Below, piece by piece: positions 29,218 to 51,308 of a stretch of DNA of 64,000 nt (position 1 is the stretch's first letter; every line of letters starts with the position of its first letter). Made by a program: the position numbers and the translations under genes. Source of the stretch: a virus. The notes under the pieces are model-generated. The model had not been told where the DNA came from and searched no databases. It saw only the letters and a program-made list of their open reading frames with translations. The stretch lies in the IMG/VR virus record IMGVR_UViG_3300020420_000721, positions 1 to 64,000 of that record; one strand, written 5' to 3'.

Positions 29218-29338
29218 TGTAACTCCTTTTGTTTAACTTATACTCTTATAATATAGTAAGATGTCTTACCTGTCAAGAAAAAAGTTCGATAAAAAAGCCA
29301 ATAAAATCAAGGCCTTTCAAAAAAAGTTGAAAAAAAGT
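29218..29338 (-). repeat. Promoter segment, copy 2 (duplicate of 27840-27961)
   Basis: Minus strand TTGACA (29271-29276), a 17-bp spacer and TATTAT (29248-29253). The spacer is an inverted repeat GTAAGA-CA-TCTTAC, an operator-like palindrome; copy 1 keeps the inner part. A terminator-like hairpin (29290-29318) lies upstream. Confidence 0.75.
29290..29318 (-). terminator. Terminator-like hairpin after the oxygenase gene
   Basis: Minus strand AAAGGCC...GGCTTT with one bulged base, followed by T-run. Ends the operon whose last gene stops at 29339. Moderate stem. Confidence 0.5.
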
Positions 29339-29968
29339 TTATATTTTTGGAAGTTTTTTGCGAGAGCCAAACCCTATTATGGATAATTTCCAGGGTCCTC
29401 CCATTTTTGAGGGTAGTTCTTTGTCTTTTAAGAACCAACTGCTATTATGCCATTGTTTTGTATTAAAAACATATGCTGTCTGTGTATTCCATTTGTATAT
29501 GTCTAATGCTTTTAAGTCATATACTTGTTTTCTATATTTTACGCCTTTTGGAAAGTGTAAAAATAATTGAGGATCAAAAAATTCTTTAGTCTGCCAATCT
29601 ATTATATTACTGTCATCTTCATTTCTCATTGCATTATGTTTATACATAAGTTTATCTTCTGTAAATTTATCATAACTAATAGTGTATGGGTGTAAACAAG
29701 TCCAGTATAAAGGAATAATAACTCCAGCTACTAACTCATAACCTTTTTCATCTACAGTATAATCAGTGTGTAAACCTACTGGAACACTACTTTGAAAATA
29801 TTCAAAATTCCAGTTAAGTCCTGGCAGTAGATCTATTTTGTCATCTACTGGTGCAAATTTATTTAGATTTTTATATCCACGACGTTTAACTTCTTTAGAA
29901 ACCATTAAGCCCATGGCTTTCTTTTTATGATATTCAATATCTAAATCGTGTTCATATGTACCAAACAT
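29339..29968 (-). CDS. Possible 2OG-Fe(II) oxygenase
   Basis: A 209-residue protein with the first iron motif H67-x-D69 in GLHTDYTVD and a candidate third ligand H174 in KQWHNSSW, separated by a beta-rich core. A basic residue near 194-203 (KLSIIGFGSRK) could bind 2-oxoglutarate. The spacing is suitable for the double-stranded beta-helix family. It is the last gene of the six-gene radical SAM operon; it follows the 80-residue gene by an overlap in the ATAAATG junction. Confidence 0.6.
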   Translation of the reverse strand: MFGTYEHDLDIEYHKKKAMGLMVSKEVKRRGYKNLNKFAPVDDKIDLLPGLNWNFEYFQSSVPVGLHTDYTVDEKGYELVAGVIIPLYWTCLHPYTISYDKFTEDKLMYKHNAMRNEDDSNIIDWQTKEFFDPQLFLHFPKGVKYRKQVYDLKALDIYKWNTQTAYVFNTKQWHNSSWFLKDKELPSKMGGPWKLSIIGFGSRKKLPKI

Positions 29969-30211
29969 TTATTCTTTAAATTTTTCCATTTGTTCTTTAG
30001 TCCATCTATTACCTTTGTAATCTCTATCACGAAAGGGTAAAGGCATTCTGTCTACATAAAGTTTATTAGGACATGAATACTCTTTTAGTGTTCTAGCGAA
30101 CTCTTTTGTTGAGTCTATACATTGATAAAAACAAAGTAGATCTTTTTCAACAATCATTTCATTCTTTATAGAGCATTGTAACATTCCTGCTACTGCTAGT
30201 TCTAATACCAT
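29969..30211 (-). CDS. Small Cys-containing protein, function unknown
   Basis: An 80-residue protein with four cysteines (about 13, 27, 31 and 47), a hydrophobic N-terminus and a very basic/acidic C-terminus. It is between DadA-like and oxygenase genes and overlaps DadA by one base. Candidates are an enzyme partner or substrate peptide of the radical SAM operon; neither can be shown. Confidence 0.55.
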   Translation of the reverse strand: MVLELAVAGMLQCSIKNEMIVEKDLLCFYQCIDSTKEFARTLKEYSCPNKLYVDRMPLPFRDRDYKGNRWTKEQMEKFKE

Positions 30212-31362
30212 TAGTTATCCTTTCCAATTTGTTTTGCTATCAACGATGCAGTATAAGCTGATAATGTCCAACCTAAATGCCCGTGACCAGTATTATAGTA
30301 TATATTCTTATTGTACTTATTCTGTTTAATTATGGGCATCATATTTGGTGTCATGGGCCTTAACCCTGCCCAAGGAGTAATGTGTTCTGTATTAATTCCA
30401 GGAAACATTCTTTCGCTCCAATTTATTAATGGCATAATTCTACTTCGTATAATATCTGTATTATATCCATTAAATTCTGCGGTACCTGCTACTCTTAATC
30501 TATCCTCACCTAATCTACTTGTAACAATTTTCGCTTCATCGTCTAGCATACTTGTCCATGGTGCTACATCAGGATTTTGAATAGTTATAGAATATCCTTT
30601 TACAGGATATATAGGTAAATCATCACCTACTGTTTTTGCCAATTCTCTACTATGAACTCCTGCACAAACAACAATAGGAATATTCAATCTTATACTTGTA
30701 AGTTCTGCTTGTATATGTTTTACTTTATATTTTGTTTGTAATACATGAAACAAATTAATACAAAATTTATGAATATCTCCTGTAAAGTCAGTTTCGTTAA
30801 AAAACCCACCTAATAGTTTAGGAGGTGGAACTAATGCTGGTTCTATTTCTAAACATTCTTTTGCTGATACTTGCCACCTATCCAGGCCTGCTTTTCTGTA
30901 TAGTTTATTAACTTTTTTAGCATTATCAAATTCTTTTTGATTAGTATAGATATGTAGAATACCTTTTTCAACCATATCAAACTGTATATCTTCTTCTTTT
31001 GCTATTTGTTTATAAAGTGTATGAGCTTTTAATGCCCATTCGCAAGTTTTACTTGTATTATGATTTGCTTCAGGAATAGCTCTTATAAATTTGTAAATCC
31101 AACTGTATTTGTCTATACTAAAACTTGGATTAAACTTTAAAGGAGCATCATCTTTTAGAAGCCATTTAATTCCTTTGCCTATATTCCGCCAACTATTCCA
31201 GGTTTCAGCATTGCTGGCACTGAGTTGACCACCATTTGCATAACTGGTCGCCATTGCTGGATATTTTCTCTTGTCGTAAATTACTACTTCGTGACCTGCT
31301 TTCGCTAGGAAGTAAGCAGTGGTGATACCTGTAATTCCGGCACCAACTACGGCAATTTTCAT
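30211..31362 (-). CDS. FAD-dependent amine/D-amino acid oxidoreductase (DadA-like)
   Basis: A 383-residue flavoenzyme of the DadA/glycine oxidase type. The N-terminal dinucleotide motif VVGAGITGITTAYFLAKAG binds FAD; SYANGGQLS matches the DadA start; the C-terminus has GLRPMTPNMMPII and NTGHGHLGW. It should oxidise an amino acid or amine, passing electrons to an acceptor. In DadA the substrate is a D-amino acid. GGAG lies 11 bases before ATG 31362. It sits between the PLP enzyme and the 80-residue protein in a tight operon. Confidence 0.85.
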   Translation of the reverse strand: MKIAVVGAGITGITTAYFLAKAGHEVVIYDKRKYPAMATSYANGGQLSASNAETWNSWRNIGKGIKWLLKDDAPLKFNPSFSIDKYSWIYKFIRAIPEANHNTSKTCEWALKAHTLYKQIAKEEDIQFDMVEKGILHIYTNQKEFDNAKKVNKLYRKAGLDRWQVSAKECLEIEPALVPPPKLLGGFFNETDFTGDIHKFCINLFHVLQTKYKVKHIQAELTSIRLNIPIVVCAGVHSRELAKTVGDDLPIYPVKGYSITIQNPDVAPWTSMLDDEAKIVTSRLGEDRLRVAGTAEFNGYNTDIIRSRIMPLINWSERMFPGINTEHITPWAGLRPMTPNMMPIIKQNKYNKNIYYNTGHGHLGWTLSAYTASLIAKQIGKDN

Positions 31363-31380
31363 GATACATTATTCTCCTTG

Positions 31381-32250
31381 TTATTTGTTGTCCCACTTTT
31401 TGTCAATTAATAGACGCATAGGTAGTCGTGTACCTACATTTATATCATTATGTTTAGCAATATGAATTGCATCTGTTTCTTCTAGTCCTAAATCATAACA
31501 CACTCTTGAATAGGTGTCACTATATTTGTTCCACAAAAAATCGGAACTAAAATGTTCCATCATCTTTATACCTATCCATTGATCACTAACATTGTGATAA
31601 CCATATTCATTCATTATACTAATAGGTCCTTTTATTTTTTCTCTACTGTATCTTATTCCAATACGTTGATTGCCCATTGCTAGGCTTTTACTTAAACTGA
31701 TACTCACTGTTTGGATAGCTGGATGACTACAGTCTAATTCAAAATTACGAACACAACCAAACCAAGCACCATCTATATGTACTGCTATTTTATTATGCCA
31801 ACAATGATCCAACATACTATACATATCTTGAATATAGTTAGTAGTGAAACAATTTGGTAAACTGACAATTAAAATATCCCCTGGCTGTAATTGAGTATAG
31901 TGTTCAATAACTTTTATTTTTTGTTCTAATCTCCAATGATATTTATACTCAAAGTTATATACTGCAATGTTACCTTTATGTAAAAAATGCAATTCATCAA
32001 GAGTGTGTGTTACTCCCAATATTGAATCTTTGTAGGGGAAACTATCAAGACCAAAATATTCACATTGTTTATGACTTTTTATCCAGCTATCAATTTGAGA
32101 TAGAAATTCTGCATTATATTCTTTTCCTCTTTTAGGATAAGTTTCTAATGTTAATTTTTTTCTAAATTTAATAAACTCATCTAAATTAATAGGTCTAGGA
32201 CGATGTGTTCTTAAATCATCTAATGTTATGCTCTGATAGGTTCTTTCCAT
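31381..32250 (-). CDS. PLP-dependent aminotransferase-like protein
   Basis: A 289-residue fold-type I PLP enzyme, compact compared with usual aminotransferases (~400). Visible PLP residues are N133 (LPNCFTTN), D160 and W163 (VHIDGAWFG), K188 (SLSKSLA, Schiff base) and R197 nearby. Activity on an amino acid, perhaps transamination or decarboxylation, is likely. It overlaps the preceding radical SAM gene by 25 bases. Confidence 0.75.
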   Translation of the reverse strand: MERTYQSITLDDLRTHRPRPINLDEFIKFRKKLTLETYPKRGKEYNAEFLSQIDSWIKSHKQCEYFGLDSFPYKDSILGVTHTLDELHFLHKGNIAVYNFEYKYHWRLEQKIKVIEHYTQLQPGDILIVSLPNCFTTNYIQDMYSMLDHCWHNKIAVHIDGAWFGCVRNFELDCSHPAIQTVSISLSKSLAMGNQRIGIRYSREKIKGPISIMNEYGYHNVSDQWIGIKMMEHFSSDFLWNKYSDTYSRVCYDLGLEETDAIHIAKHNDINVGTRLPMRLLIDKKWDNK

Positions 32251-33137
32251 TTTTCTATTATCGCGTCTAATTTACAAGGACAATATGTTACATTACACGT
32301 TATCTCCTTTTCTGGCATCTCATATTCTCCAAATATATTACCAATTTTTCCGCCAACTGTTTGTGTACATCTATATATGTCACCAGTTTTATCAACAAAT
32401 AATCTCTTTAATCCTGCCATACATTTCCAACCATTAAATTTATGTTGATCATTAGCTTGTAATTCAGCCCAATGTTTTTTGTAGCCATCAACAAAAATTT
32501 TACGTGGAATATCCCATTCAATACCAAACGGTTTTTGTCCAATGTGTCTGGCGTTTATAGCCCAATCTTTTTGTTCTTGATTGAAGTCCATAAGGTCAGG
32601 TTTCTCAATATTTTGCCGTGTTAGTCTAGGTATCACACTTACCTTTAATTGTTTTAATCTGTTATGTAATTTTTTAGCACGTTCAAAGTTTTCTGGAGTA
32701 ACCATTAACGGAACATTTACAGTAGTTCTTTCATGTAATACTTCTGCTACACGATAAAAATGATCATCATCAGCTTCTTCACTATGCCAACTTAAAAAAA
32801 TAAAACAATTCTTTTTAGTATGAAAATTTTCCCAATAACGAATTGTACGACTTGCATTTGTAGAAAATTCTATAAACGTATTGTCGTTACTAATAGTATC
32901 TATGAAATCTGAAAATTTTGGTTGCAATGTTGGTTCGCCTCCTAATATTTCAACATAGACATACTTATTACGTTTTTCAACTTCCTTAATAAAATTTATC
33001 CATGGAGTCCAGTTATCACTCCAACGGTAACTACCATCTCTATGATAATCGTTACAATATGAACAATTATAATTACAGACATTGTGTGTGAATAAAGTAA
33101 CTATTGCACAATCAGGATTATTATTATCTAGACGCAT
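32226..33137 (-). CDS. Radical SAM enzyme A, SPASM-like
   Basis: A 303-residue radical SAM protein. The 4Fe-4S motif is C21-x3-C25-x2-C28 (CNYNCSYC), followed by GGEP (66-69). C-terminal cysteines (WKCMAG, YRCTQ, TCNVTYCPC) may hold an auxiliary cluster as in SPASM enzymes, many of which modify peptides. It overlaps enzyme B by 14 bases. GGA lies before its ATG. The substrate is unknown. Confidence 0.85.
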   Translation of the reverse strand: MRLDNNNPDCAIVTLFTHNVCNYNCSYCNDYHRDGSYRWSDNWTPWINFIKEVEKRNKYVYVEILGGEPTLQPKFSDFIDTISNDNTFIEFSTNASRTIRYWENFHTKKNCFIFLSWHSEEADDDHFYRVAEVLHERTTVNVPLMVTPENFERAKKLHNRLKQLKVSVIPRLTRQNIEKPDLMDFNQEQKDWAINARHIGQKPFGIEWDIPRKIFVDGYKKHWAELQANDQHKFNGWKCMAGLKRLFVDKTGDIYRCTQTVGGKIGNIFGEYEMPEKEITCNVTYCPCKLDAIIEKWKEPIRA

Positions 33138-34164
33138 TTTGTTCCTTTGCTAATACTTGTTTGTTAACTAGATATGAACCTTTATCACCACAAGTTAAAA
33201 TACATCTTTGTATATATTCAGGATGTTCAGAATACCATCTGGACTTTAACGTTTTATAAAAATCATTATTTAAAATATCTATAATATTATGTTTGTAAAG
33301 ATTATTCCAACCTTCTGGATAGTTCTCTAACCATTTTATATTTTTCCTAATTGAACCATCAGCAATATAACAACAGGGCCAAACATTACCACTAGCTGAT
33401 ATATAAATTTCTGGAGTATTAAGATGTTTACAAGTTATAGTTGGAATTTTTGAATCTAAAAGTTTGTAATCTCCCTTTGCTGATGCCTTATAAAAATTTT
33501 TAATTTGTGACATATCTTTAGGGTTTACGTGTTGGTCTCCACCATCTCTAATCATTACCTTTTCTGTTTCTTTTTTCTTTGTTTTTAATTTTTTCTTTGC
33601 CGCCCATATAACATTTCTACCACTAGTTCTAACAGTAAAACGAATCCCTAATCTTTCTGCATGAGCTTGAGCTACCGGTAAATCGTCTTGATTGTGTTCA
33701 AAACTAATAAACTGCCAACGGCCATCTCCTCCAGCACCAACAAATGCTTCTAGATTTCTTATAACATTTTGCCATTTAACATTTTGCCTATAGATATGAT
33801 TAGTATGTTCATGTCCATCTATACAAAAATCAACGCCTACTCTAGGAATTTTTGCAAATTCTTTCCACCAGTCAGTAGTATTAATACCACCATTTGTGCT
33901 AATAAAAACTTTGCATTTTTTATCACTAAAAAATTTAACAATTTCGAATAACTCTGGATTTAGAATAGGATCTCCAGATACCCCACATAACTTTATTTCA
34001 ACGCCTTCCATTTCCTCATTTTTAAAAATATTGTATAGAAGATCAAAAGGCAAGTTATTATTACCACGAAGTGGCATATTCAGTCTAGTTCTGATGCATA
34101 ACGGACAAGCCGCATTGCAGTCTGAACTTACTTCTAATTCATACTCTCGGAAATGCTCTAGCAT
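33124..34164 (-). CDS. Radical SAM enzyme B, SPASM-like
   Basis: A 346-residue radical SAM protein with C16-x3-C20-x2-C23 (CNAACPLC), a GVSGDPILNP variant of the GGEP motif, and C-terminal cysteines (ITCKHL, WPCCY, QRCILTC) suggesting auxiliary Fe-S clusters. First gene of the six-gene operon. Its start follows a late box with only 5 bases between, so the transcript probably begins at the start codon. Confidence 0.85.
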   Translation of the reverse strand: MLEHFREYELEVSSDCNAACPLCIRTRLNMPLRGNNNLPFDLLYNIFKNEEMEGVEIKLCGVSGDPILNPELFEIVKFFSDKKCKVFISTNGGINTTDWWKEFAKIPRVGVDFCIDGHEHTNHIYRQNVKWQNVIRNLEAFVGAGGDGRWQFISFEHNQDDLPVAQAHAERLGIRFTVRTSGRNVIWAAKKKLKTKKKETEKVMIRDGGDQHVNPKDMSQIKNFYKASAKGDYKLLDSKIPTITCKHLNTPEIYISASGNVWPCCYIADGSIRKNIKWLENYPEGWNNLYKHNIIDILNNDFYKTLKSRWYSEHPEYIQRCILTCGDKGSYLVNKQVLAKEQNASR

Positions 34165-34169
34165 ATCGA

Positions 34170-34176
34170 TATTTAT
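34170..34176 (-). promoter_or_regulatory. Late promoter box placed for a leaderless start (radical SAM B)
   Basis: ATAAATA followed by TCGAT and ATG 34164. With T4 late promoter spacing the first base of the RNA is the A of the start codon. Only Shine-Dalgarno-free sequence lies between. Confidence 0.6.
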
Positions 34177-34183
34177 GCTAGTA

Positions 34184-42645: not shown

Positions 42646-42652
42646 TATTTAT
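42646..42652 (-). promoter_or_regulatory. Late promoter box placed for a leaderless start (gp4)
   Basis: ATAAATA then CTAAC and ATG 42640. The predicted first base of the RNA is the A of ATG. No ribosome binding site could fit between. The box ends at the stop codon of the tail-tube paralogue. Confidence 0.6.
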
Positions 42653-43302
42653 TAACTTGAAATACTAGTTGGCATATTGCCAGATCTTGTTTCAATGTTA
42701 TAACCTGAATATTGTATACTTAAATTATATTGAACAAAATCACTGTTAGAATACTCTAACTGATCGTGATCTACTGAACCAATAAAAGGTTCATAGACTG
42801 TAACTACATTATGCTCGTCAGCTATATCTTGACGAAAAATTTCAATCTTCTCAAAGAAATGTTTATCAAAAGGAAGTTTATAACCTCTGTTACTTGATAT
42901 ATCTCCGGGAAATTCAAAACTATTTAAATTCTTATCTGTTGCTTTAACTGTAAAACCTTCATTATAATAATGAAGCGAATACTTTCTAATAAAATCTTCT
43001 AACCTACCATCTCTATCTTCAAGTAGTCTAATACTAATTGGTTGATAATCAACACCAGTTTGAATTGTTACTCTTCTATTATATGCGTTTAGTGTATTTG
43101 TACGAAAAGCGACACTCGGCATTTGTACCGAGGTCGCTGTTTCAAATAGTGTTGATGTATAACCACCAGTTGAGTCTAGGTGTGTAAAAGTAACTTGGTA
43201 ATTAAATTTATGCCTAGGTAAAAGTGACTGTACTTGATTGCCACCTTGAGGAGATTCACCGAAATATACACGAGTTGCATGATCTCCCAAGAACTTAGAC
43301 AC
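42652..43302 (-). CDS. Tail tube-like protein (second gp19-type paralogue)
   Basis: A 216-residue protein that resembles phage tail-tube proteins: N-terminal RVYFG...LLPRHKFNYQVTF, a central beta core with FEFPGD, and C-terminal YEPFIGSVDHDQLEYSNSDFVQYNL. The GTG start at 43302 follows GGAG by 7 bases. A second tube-like protein beside a classic gp19 could form a tube end or initiator (compare T4 gp54 near gp19). Confidence 0.7.
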   Translation of the reverse strand: MSKFLGDHATRVYFGESPQGGNQVQSLLPRHKFNYQVTFTHLDSTGGYTSTLFETATSVQMPSVAFRTNTLNAYNRRVTIQTGVDYQPISIRLLEDRDGRLEDFIRKYSLHYYNEGFTVKATDKNLNSFEFPGDISSNRGYKLPFDKHFFEKIEIFRQDIADEHNVVTVYEPFIGSVDHDQLEYSNSDFVQYNLSIQYSGYNIETRSGNMPTSISS

Positions 43303-49654: not shown

Positions 49655-50830
49655 TTAATTATGTGTCCAAGAGTATAGTTGAGGATTCACTTCTTTGAGT
49701 GTAAACTTTGTTCTAGGATCGAAAACTTCTGTAAATTTTCTAAATGCTAACAAGTGTTTTTCTTCCATCTTAACTTGTTTTGCATTTAGTTGTCGACAAA
49801 TAAAATCTTTTGTTTTAACATTATATATCGATTCTACAATTTTCTTACACTCTTCTATTTGTTTTTCTGTTAATACTTGTCTAGCATTAACTATTGCAGG
49901 GTTATATGTCCATGAATCAAATACCCTACCCATATAGCCTGACTTTTTAGCCCAGTCATCAAACTCATTTACTTTATTAATACTCCAAATAGTATGAGTT
50001 GCCTGGATTCTTGTTTTAATATTTGTATGTTGCTCTGATAATTCCATCCATTTGTTGGTATTTTTTTCAAATAAATTCCAATTCAATCCATTTCTAATAT
50101 ATTCTGCTAAATTTCCAACAGCTTCAGTACTACATCTTAAATCAACTTTGCCAAATTTACAAAGAATATCTAAAATTTTCTGTTTTGGAAATATAGTAGC
50201 ATTAGTATTAATCTGTATTTGTAAATTGGATAATTTTGTTTTTTCTGCTAACATATCAATAAACGTTTCAAAATTTCTAGTCATAAAAGGTTCGCCTCCG
50301 AACACTCCTACGTGTGCTAACCATCTTAAATCTGCGTTTCTTAATTCTTCAATTAATTTTAATTCAAATTTAAATGTATCTTCTTTTCTTAATGTGATTT
50401 CTTTGTTTTCTAAAAAATCTAAATCAATATTATTTTCTTCTGCCCATTCTATTTCGTCATTCCATGAAGTACTTTGAGCAGGACCACAATATTTACATTT
50501 TAGATTACAAAAACTACTAAATCCTGCTTGAATTTGAACTAGTTTGCCTGGTGGATACTTTACTCCTGTTCTTCCAAAACCTTGTTGCCTTAAAGAAGTA
50601 ACATTAGACTCTTCAGCTATTCGACATCTACTACAAGAAGTATCTTTTAAATTTTCATATGAATATGTTGGATCGTTTACTGCTTTGTCTAGCATTTCTT
50701 CTAGATCTTTATGCCTATAAGTCATCCTACAACAAGATGTAACGTACCCAGATTCCTGTGCTGAAGGTCTAAAATGGACTCCGTTTGTAAGCCAGGCACA
50801 TCCTTTATCAGTTGATAACATATTTTTCAT
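49655..50830 (-). CDS. Radical SAM enzyme C with extra N-terminal cysteines
   Basis: A 391-residue radical SAM protein: CxxxCxxC at C108, C112, C115 (CNLKCKYC) followed by FGGEPF. N-terminal cysteines C33, C34, C66 and C69 could hold a second cluster, of the twitch/SPASM kind but at the N-terminus. A single gene, not in the operon of enzymes A and B. It is transcribed from its own late promoter, which lies just 5 bases before its ATG, again leaderless. Confidence 0.85.
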   Translation of the reverse strand: MKNMLSTDKGCAWLTNGVHFRPSAQESGYVTSCCRMTYRHKDLEEMLDKAVNDPTYSYENLKDTSCSRCRIAEESNVTSLRQQGFGRTGVKYPPGKLVQIQAGFSSFCNLKCKYCGPAQSTSWNDEIEWAEENNIDLDFLENKEITLRKEDTFKFELKLIEELRNADLRWLAHVGVFGGEPFMTRNFETFIDMLAEKTKLSNLQIQINTNATIFPKQKILDILCKFGKVDLRCSTEAVGNLAEYIRNGLNWNLFEKNTNKWMELSEQHTNIKTRIQATHTIWSINKVNEFDDWAKKSGYMGRVFDSWTYNPAIVNARQVLTEKQIEECKKIVESIYNVKTKDFICRQLNAKQVKMEEKHLLAFRKFTEVFDPRTKFTLKEVNPQLYSWTHN

Positions 50831-50831
50831 G

Positions 50832-51308
50832 CTAATATTTATAAGAATATATGAACCAAATAATACCTATCAAAAGAGCAGATAACATAAGAAGTAGAGC
50901 TACTATAAAAACACCTTCCAATATACTTCTCTTTAACTCCTGTATTCTATAAACTTCTTTATCACGTTTCTTTTTAATCTCGCGACGTAAATCTATCATT
51001 TCTTTCCAAGTACCATACCCAAATCTATAGTTTAAAAGAGCCGCTAATTCTTTTTCTTGTTCCTGTAGCTTTTTTTCATGAATAATAAGTTGTAAAGCCT
51101 CAGCTTCTACACTTCCTGATGCTAAAAAACGTTTATATAATGGAGGATTATTATTGTATGATTGTGCTTTTCTTATATCTGAAGCCGCTGAATACCATTT
51201 GGAGAGTTGTCCGACACACCTTTCTAGATCCTGGCCGTGTGAAACCAGCGATTGGATGCTTTTGTAAGCCGCGGTAGCCGCCGCGATTGCACTTATCGGG
51301 TCCAACAT
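50832..51308 (-). CDS. Conserved protein with C-terminal membrane helix
   Basis: 158 residues from ATG 51308 (MLDPISAIAAATAAYKS). Coiled-coil middle (about 75-125) and a C-terminal transmembrane helix (about 130-152). Family conserved in marine T4-like phages, unnamed. The start codon follows a TTAAATA box by 5 bases; an upstream GTG would be inside that promoter. The stop lies 2 bases before radical SAM C's start region. Confidence 0.7.
   Translation of the reverse strand: MLDPISAIAAATAAYKSIQSLVSHGQDLERCVGQLSKWYSAASDIRKAQSYNNNPPLYKRFLASGSVEAEALQLIIHEKKLQEQEKELAALLNYRFGYGTWKEMIDLRREIKKKRDKEVYRIQELKRSILEGVFIVALLLMLSALLIGIIWFIYSYKY
50836..50843 (-). promoter_or_regulatory. Late promoter box placed for a leaderless start (radical SAM C)
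   Basis: Perfect TATAAATA followed by TTAGC and ATG 50830: predicted RNA begins at the start codon. It overlaps the end of the preceding gene. Confidence 0.65.

Follow-up and report, generated by a model that had tools for sequence, protein, structure and literature searches.

The window analysed here comprises the 64,000 nucleotides at positions 1 to 64,000 of the IMG/VR virus record IMGVR_UViG_3300020420_000721, which is 86,039 bases long (contig G000). We studied an operon of six open reading frames (ORFs) on the minus strand of this window, at 29339-34164, whose products include two radical S-adenosylmethionine (SAM) enzymes (rS1 and rS2), a pyridoxal phosphate (PLP) enzyme and a 2-oxoglutarate (2OG) oxygenase. 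The genes for these four recur together and in order in other viral contigs. The remaining two, for a DadA-like flavin adenine dinucleotide (FAD) enzyme and a protein of 80 amino acids (aa), appear to have been inserted between PLP and 2OG. From the head of the operon, the genes are:

33124-34164, minus strand: rS1, 346 aa, radical SAM protein with a SPASM domain (array family F5)
32226-33137, minus strand: rS2, 303 aa, radical SAM protein (array family F3)
31381-32250, minus strand: PLP, 289 aa, predicted miniature fold-type I PLP enzyme
30211-31362, minus strand: DadA, 383 aa, D-amino-acid-dehydrogenase-like FAD enzyme (DadA/PRK12409), outside the conserved module
29969-30211, minus strand: small protein, 80-aa orphan between DadA and 2OG
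29339-29968, minus strand: 2OG, 209 aa, predicted Fe(II)/2OG-type oxygenase

All six lie exactly where a sequence-only reading of the window had placed them, and the tight packing it described was reproduced from the coordinates, neighbouring genes overlapping by 14, 25 and 1 bases or lying 18 and 0 bases apart.

Both radical SAM proteins scored above the Pfam cut-off for PF04055 (35.7 bits for rS1 and 39.8 bits for rS2), confirming that the operon encodes two such enzymes, and rS1 also carries a SPASM domain above the cut-off (PF13186, 22.4 bits). In rS2, the CX3CX2C motif and five extra cysteines (C239, C257, C281, C286 and C288) are invariant across 23 sequences. For the PLP and 2OG proteins no Pfam family scored above its cut-off, and neither the PLP family profile nor the 2OG profile matched any PDB sequence. 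Despite this, structural models bore out the identities proposed for both. The AlphaFold2 model of PLP (predicted local distance difference test, pLDDT, 92.3) resembled fold-type I enzymes in Foldseek, namely ACC synthase, HisC and CobD (E-values to 3.9e-10, 10-17% identity), and the residues given PLP-binding roles by comparison with aminotransferases (D160, S185-x-S187-K188, R196-x-G198 and R279) do not vary across 32 sequences. The 2OG model (pLDDT 93.9) is a double-stranded beta-helix for which Foldseek returned SnoN and prolyl-4-hydroxylase, and its H67-x-D69, H174 and K194 are invariant in 25 sequences. The models confirm PLP as a fold-type I enzyme of miniature size and 2OG as an Fe(II)/2OG oxygenase, each with its predicted catalytic residues intact.

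Relatives of the module were found in other viral contigs. Scanning with the window PLP protein alone returned nothing, and tblastn of the PLP, 2OG and 80-aa proteins against phage records gave no match; a two-sequence PLP alignment (A1) opened the family in the scan of viral contigs and yielded 59 loci, of which 46, on viral contigs other than the window's, reached at least 44% identity. Most of the PLP loci are surrounded by arrays of radical SAM genes. The window PLP is 43-55% identical to 30 array members and rS2 46-57% identical to 22 array homologs, while rS1 shares 29-36% identity with its homologs at array heads. We counted gene order in the 36 loci where PLP is flanked by 4 kb or more on each side. 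The 2OG gene lay within five genes downstream of PLP in 32 of these and rS2 within four genes upstream in 24, the number of loci with both also being 24/36; moreover, rS1-rS2-PLP-2OG occurred in the window's order, with rS1 at the head, in 14. Rather than being scattered and independent, rS1, rS2, PLP and 2OG thus keep their order in many phage contigs, and the proposal that the operon is one system stands for these four genes. Furthermore, PLP and 2OG vary together: among array loci, with the window excluded, their distances were correlated (r = 0.61; 0 of 5000 permutations), and correlations with rS2 distances were weaker (r = 0.35 and 0.42; 54 and 50 of 5000 permutations). The corresponding value with the window included was set aside, as it is inflated by the window as an outgroup.

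Even with PLP inverted, as at L125-L129, rS2 remains its neighbour, and a 157 kb T4-like record (L039) has PLP and 2OG together without rS2. Remote PLP homologs (25-31% identity) still often neighbour a short protein with HxD...H-type motifs, as seen by eye in the translations at L033, L084, L091 and L094. At three loci a methyltransferase-like domain is fused to 2OG (L038, 6169-7296; L057, 8915-10156; L081, 8921-10054), hinting that both activities may belong to one pathway.

The arrays themselves are large, with up to 17 radical SAM matches in records of about 100-150 kb (G008 and G009); the jumbo-size record G019 (518,643 bases, L081) combines an array with 22 radical SAM matches and a gp23 of full length. 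Upstream of PLP, usually between rS1 and rS2, stand members of two Twitch-type radical SAM families, F1 (33/36 loci) and F4 (26/36 loci). Other recurrent partners are QueC-like PP-loop proteins, methyltransferases, B12-radical SAM proteins and nitroreductases, which by their predicted families are enzymes of small-molecule type. The gp23 gene was present in 9 of the 26 records tested, the window contig included, and some of the others are fragments without gp23; at least the gp23-bearing records are T4-like phages. Judged from gene content, the module usually lies inside a large radical SAM array in marine T4-like phages, and the window operon is a reduced variant of it, with a third, F38-like radical SAM gene 15 kb away. 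A highly conserved ORF of 73-78 aa was seen at array heads (L043, 1147-1371; L047, 442-678; L048, 625-852; and nine other loci). A 74-aa ORF (F12) was considered as an acyl carrier or precursor and set aside; it is absent from the window and conserved throughout. Finally, a pattern scan of genome contigs from 84,980 cellular species genomes with a further PLP alignment (A2) gave nine pattern matches, none of them a relative, which is weak evidence of absence since the patterns were strict. With no relative found there, the pathway may be viral as it now stands.

DadA behaves differently from its neighbours. Its identity as a DadA-like flavoprotein was borne out at the sequence level, with 513.7 bits to NCBIfam NF009074 (PRK12409 D-amino acid dehydrogenase) against a curated cut-off of 494, and its nearest solved structures are glycine oxidases. 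Homologs at 56-81% identity occur by themselves in another 29 phage loci. They often follow nrdA-nrdB-glutaredoxin genes or stand next to a gene resembling serine hydroxymethyltransferase (glyA-like), all named from their translations. The former arrangement was seen in marine phages at L009, L011-L017, L023, L024 and L026-L032, where a conserved protein of 58-61 aa is often encoded immediately upstream of DadA, and the latter, directly or almost directly upstream of DadA, at L018 (6636-7775), L020 and L021. Of 21 other DadA records, L033 alone had the cassette PLP gene, as a distant homolog. Conversely, in 21 array or PLP-carrying records no DadA gene was found by a search that did detect it in the window contig as a positive control; a first search of 38 array records, run without such a control, was also empty. 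Thus, DadA recurs without the cassette and was not found in the array records searched, which places it outside the conserved unit. DadA matches at 30-47% identity in the GenBank entry 'Acinetobacter phage MD-2021a' were set aside because they look like bacterial sequence, and a literature search on whether DadA is known from marine phages returned nothing useful. For the 80-aa protein, no family was matched, tblastn against phage records gave nothing at E 1, and the fetched loci contained no relative. Both DadA and the 80-aa gene therefore appear to have been inserted.

The sequence-only reading had proposed that the operon makes or modifies an amino-acid-derived group. We retain this as the best interpretation of four of the genes, leaving out DadA and the 80-aa gene: with confidence evenly balanced, we propose that rS1, rS2, PLP and 2OG are the minimal form of a marine T4-like module that makes or tailors an amino-acid-derived product, either a small molecule or carrier-bound. 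PLP would act on the alpha-amino group, rS1 and rS2 would make the hard C-H or C-C changes on unactivated carbons, and 2OG would hydroxylate or desaturate the product. DadA is on this view a separate phage gene that arrived between PLP and 2OG along with the 80-aa orphan; it may contribute the oxidation of an amino acid or may do no more than share the operon's expression. Catalytic activity, the class of substrate, the order of these steps, their benefit to the phage and the action of the enzymes in one pathway are all matters that we infer. A bolder version, which we put forward only tentatively, is that the operon is the minimal core of a virus-specific pathway, with more than 15 radical SAM genes in some genomes, that makes a complex amino-acid-derived natural product while infection proceeds. 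Several points weigh against the proposal. Because the PLP family matches no PDB sequence, the type of reaction assigned to PLP is a guess. F1 and F4 are absent from the operon, so that the window may hold only a portion of the pathway, or another pathway. The contig, 86 kb long and with a jumbo-like UvsX, is a fragment, and other parts of the pathway may lie elsewhere. Lastly, SPASM-type domains would fit a peptide or protein substrate equally well.

This last point leads to the strongest of the alternatives, although we consider it unlikely: that the target is a structural protein of the phage, or else a small peptide, which SPASM-type radical SAM enzymes and 2OG modify at a late stage of infection. 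The SPASM domain of rS1, the five extra invariant cysteines of rS2 and the resemblance of the 2OG model to a prolyl-4-hydroxylase acting on EF-Tu (4iw3) are in keeping with it, as are the QueC-like proteins of the arrays, given that QueC-family enzymes reportedly conjugate nucleobases to proteins in type IV CBASS (cyclic-oligonucleotide-based anti-phage signalling systems; PMC11996544, PMC13279940). However, a PLP enzyme is unusual in such systems, and no conserved short precursor was seen among the array families, where the sole recurrent 74-aa ORF lies outside the module and is conserved over its whole length. Looking for a precursor peptide whose core varies, we saw only the orphan 80-aa gene in the operon and no short ORF conserved within the module. 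Somewhat less probable still is the remodelling of host-surface glycan or lipopolysaccharide (LPS), in which the module would make an unusual sugar or substituent for host-range or superinfection-exclusion functions. Radical SAM cassettes of pelagimyophages are reported to adjoin tail-fibre and LPS genes (PMC7029224), and in Pelagibacter phage Mosig the neighbourhood of the distant homologs includes tail-fibre genes, an ArnB-like aminotransferase, an epimerase and a carbamoyltransferase; yet glycosyltransferases and nucleotide-sugar enzymes are not recurrent in the arrays, and the window operon adjoins uvsY rather than tail fibres.

The sequence-only reading had also considered a group carried on a phage DNA base, and this now appears weaker than it held. 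Hypermodified-thymidine phage pathways combine radical SAM, PLP and FAD enzymes, so the operon shares their enzyme classes by general analogy, and a route through 5-hydroxymethyl-deoxyuridine or through 7-deazaguanine was weighed. The base hydroxymethylase that had gone unseen in the window is likewise not found in the whole 86 kb contig: there was no match to the thymidylate-synthase family (PF00303) in G000, in the array phages G007 (169 kb) and G020 (182 kb), or in G004, G012 or G013, and none to QueD (PF01242) or QueC (PF06508) in G000, these negatives being limited by the fragmentary state of the records, all of which may be fragments. QueC matches, weak or strong, occur in seven array records, with a clear QueC gene away from the array in G012; QueD, on the other hand, exceeded its cut-off in only one array or PLP-carrying record, G019. 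Neither route is supported, and we regard base modification as improbable and the least favoured of the substantive options. Finally, the six genes could be unconnected auxiliary genes brought together by chance in a plastic late region. This probably describes DadA and the 80-aa gene, but the other four keep their order across many divergent contigs and PLP and 2OG co-vary, and for the operon as a whole we find it very hard to credit.

Around the operon and elsewhere in the window lie the following features:

34170-34177, minus strand: late-promoter-like box CATAAATA, 5 nt upstream of the rS1 ATG
29278-29340, minus strand: terminator-like hairpin downstream of 2OG, with U tracts (stem of 8 bp, -8 kcal/mol, z -1.66)
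29248-29276, minus strand: sigma70-type promoter of the next gene (TTGACA-17-TATTAT, 11 of 12), from a consensus scan
49655-50830, minus strand: third radical SAM gene, 391 aa, PF04055, related to array family F38, outside the operon

The operon had been described as read from one late box and closed by a terminator-like hairpin, and each of these claims holds in part. The box is present on the coding strand, and because it lies 5 nt before the rS1 ATG, a message starting from it would be almost leaderless. The 21 NATAAATA boxes on the coding strand (the opposite strand has 1) do not exceed the 26.6 that composition predicts, but 11 of the 21 are no more than 60 nt from the start of an ORF. 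Read-through from uvsY, which ends 19 nt upstream of the operon, is an alternative. Late timing would follow from the box. At three sites (50836-50843, 42646-42653 and 34170-34177) a NATAAATA box stands exactly 5 nt before an ORF start, perhaps marking leaderless late messages. The 8-bp, U-tailed hairpin after the 2OG stop is likewise present, but it is only modestly better than shuffled sequences and was not called by a consensus terminator scan. The sigma70-type promoter at 29276-29248 opens the next unit and so supports an operon boundary here.

The contig is assigned to a T4-like phage by its gp23 gene (67617-68591, E 6.4e-98) and by the uvsX, uvsY and gp32-like genes that adjoin the operon. 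Its UvsX is closest to those of jumbo phages such as Atu_ph07 and Phosso (65-69% identity), so the contig may represent part of a much larger genome. The third radical SAM gene stands alone amid structural genes and is 31% identical to F38. On the minus strand, the window further encodes a SufS/cysteine-desulfurase-like class-V aminotransferase (230-1510; PF00266, 442.6 bits), which could supply sulfur for radical SAM Fe-S clusters, and a plastocyanin/azurin-type copper protein (1678-2112; PF00127).

Large radical SAM arrays of phages have been on record from 2010 or earlier, with no function assigned to them. Our search of a literature collection with few subscription journals found no naming or description of an rS2-PLP-2OG core. 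Among marine T4-like phages, the genome TARA_ERS488813_N000010 has 12 radical SAM genes and such arrays are linked to Fe-S assembly genes, with no pathway given in the available portion of the report (PMC5332604); pelagimyophage cassettes lie in a hypervariable host-recognition region, also with no pathway in the text accessible to us (PMC7029224). The window contig is of the same phage type and also has a SufS-like gene, but it differs from these arrays, for which the accessible text describes no rS2-PLP-2OG core, in having two radical SAM genes in the operon and one apart, and in its DadA insertion. The Campylobacter phages CP220 and CPt10 likewise carry clusters of radical SAM genes, 11-12 in number and with no pathway reported (PMC2853527). 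Campylobacter phages gave the best tblastn matches of rS1, and the sole matches of rS2, among isolates; however, identity was 23-30% over part of the proteins, and the window PLP had no tblastn match there. Pelagibacter phage Mosig EXVC030M (MT647606) has, in one region, distant homologs of PLP, rS1, rS2 and the array nitroreductase and methyltransferase. It differs in its low identity (~23-29%), in having these genes on two strands, and in TauD, desaturase and carbamoyltransferase genes that the window lacks. This biosynthetic region of about 20 kb adjoins tail-fibre genes (L176, MT647606 50000-72000) and also holds oxygenases, and the host of Mosig is in culture. Should a small molecule prove to be the product, then viruses would carry out complex chemistry in abundant marine bacteria. 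Together, the conserved rS2-PLP-2OG core, the four-gene minimal version in the window and a cultured pelagiphage with distant homologs turn what was a vague oddity into a system that can now be expressed and assayed.

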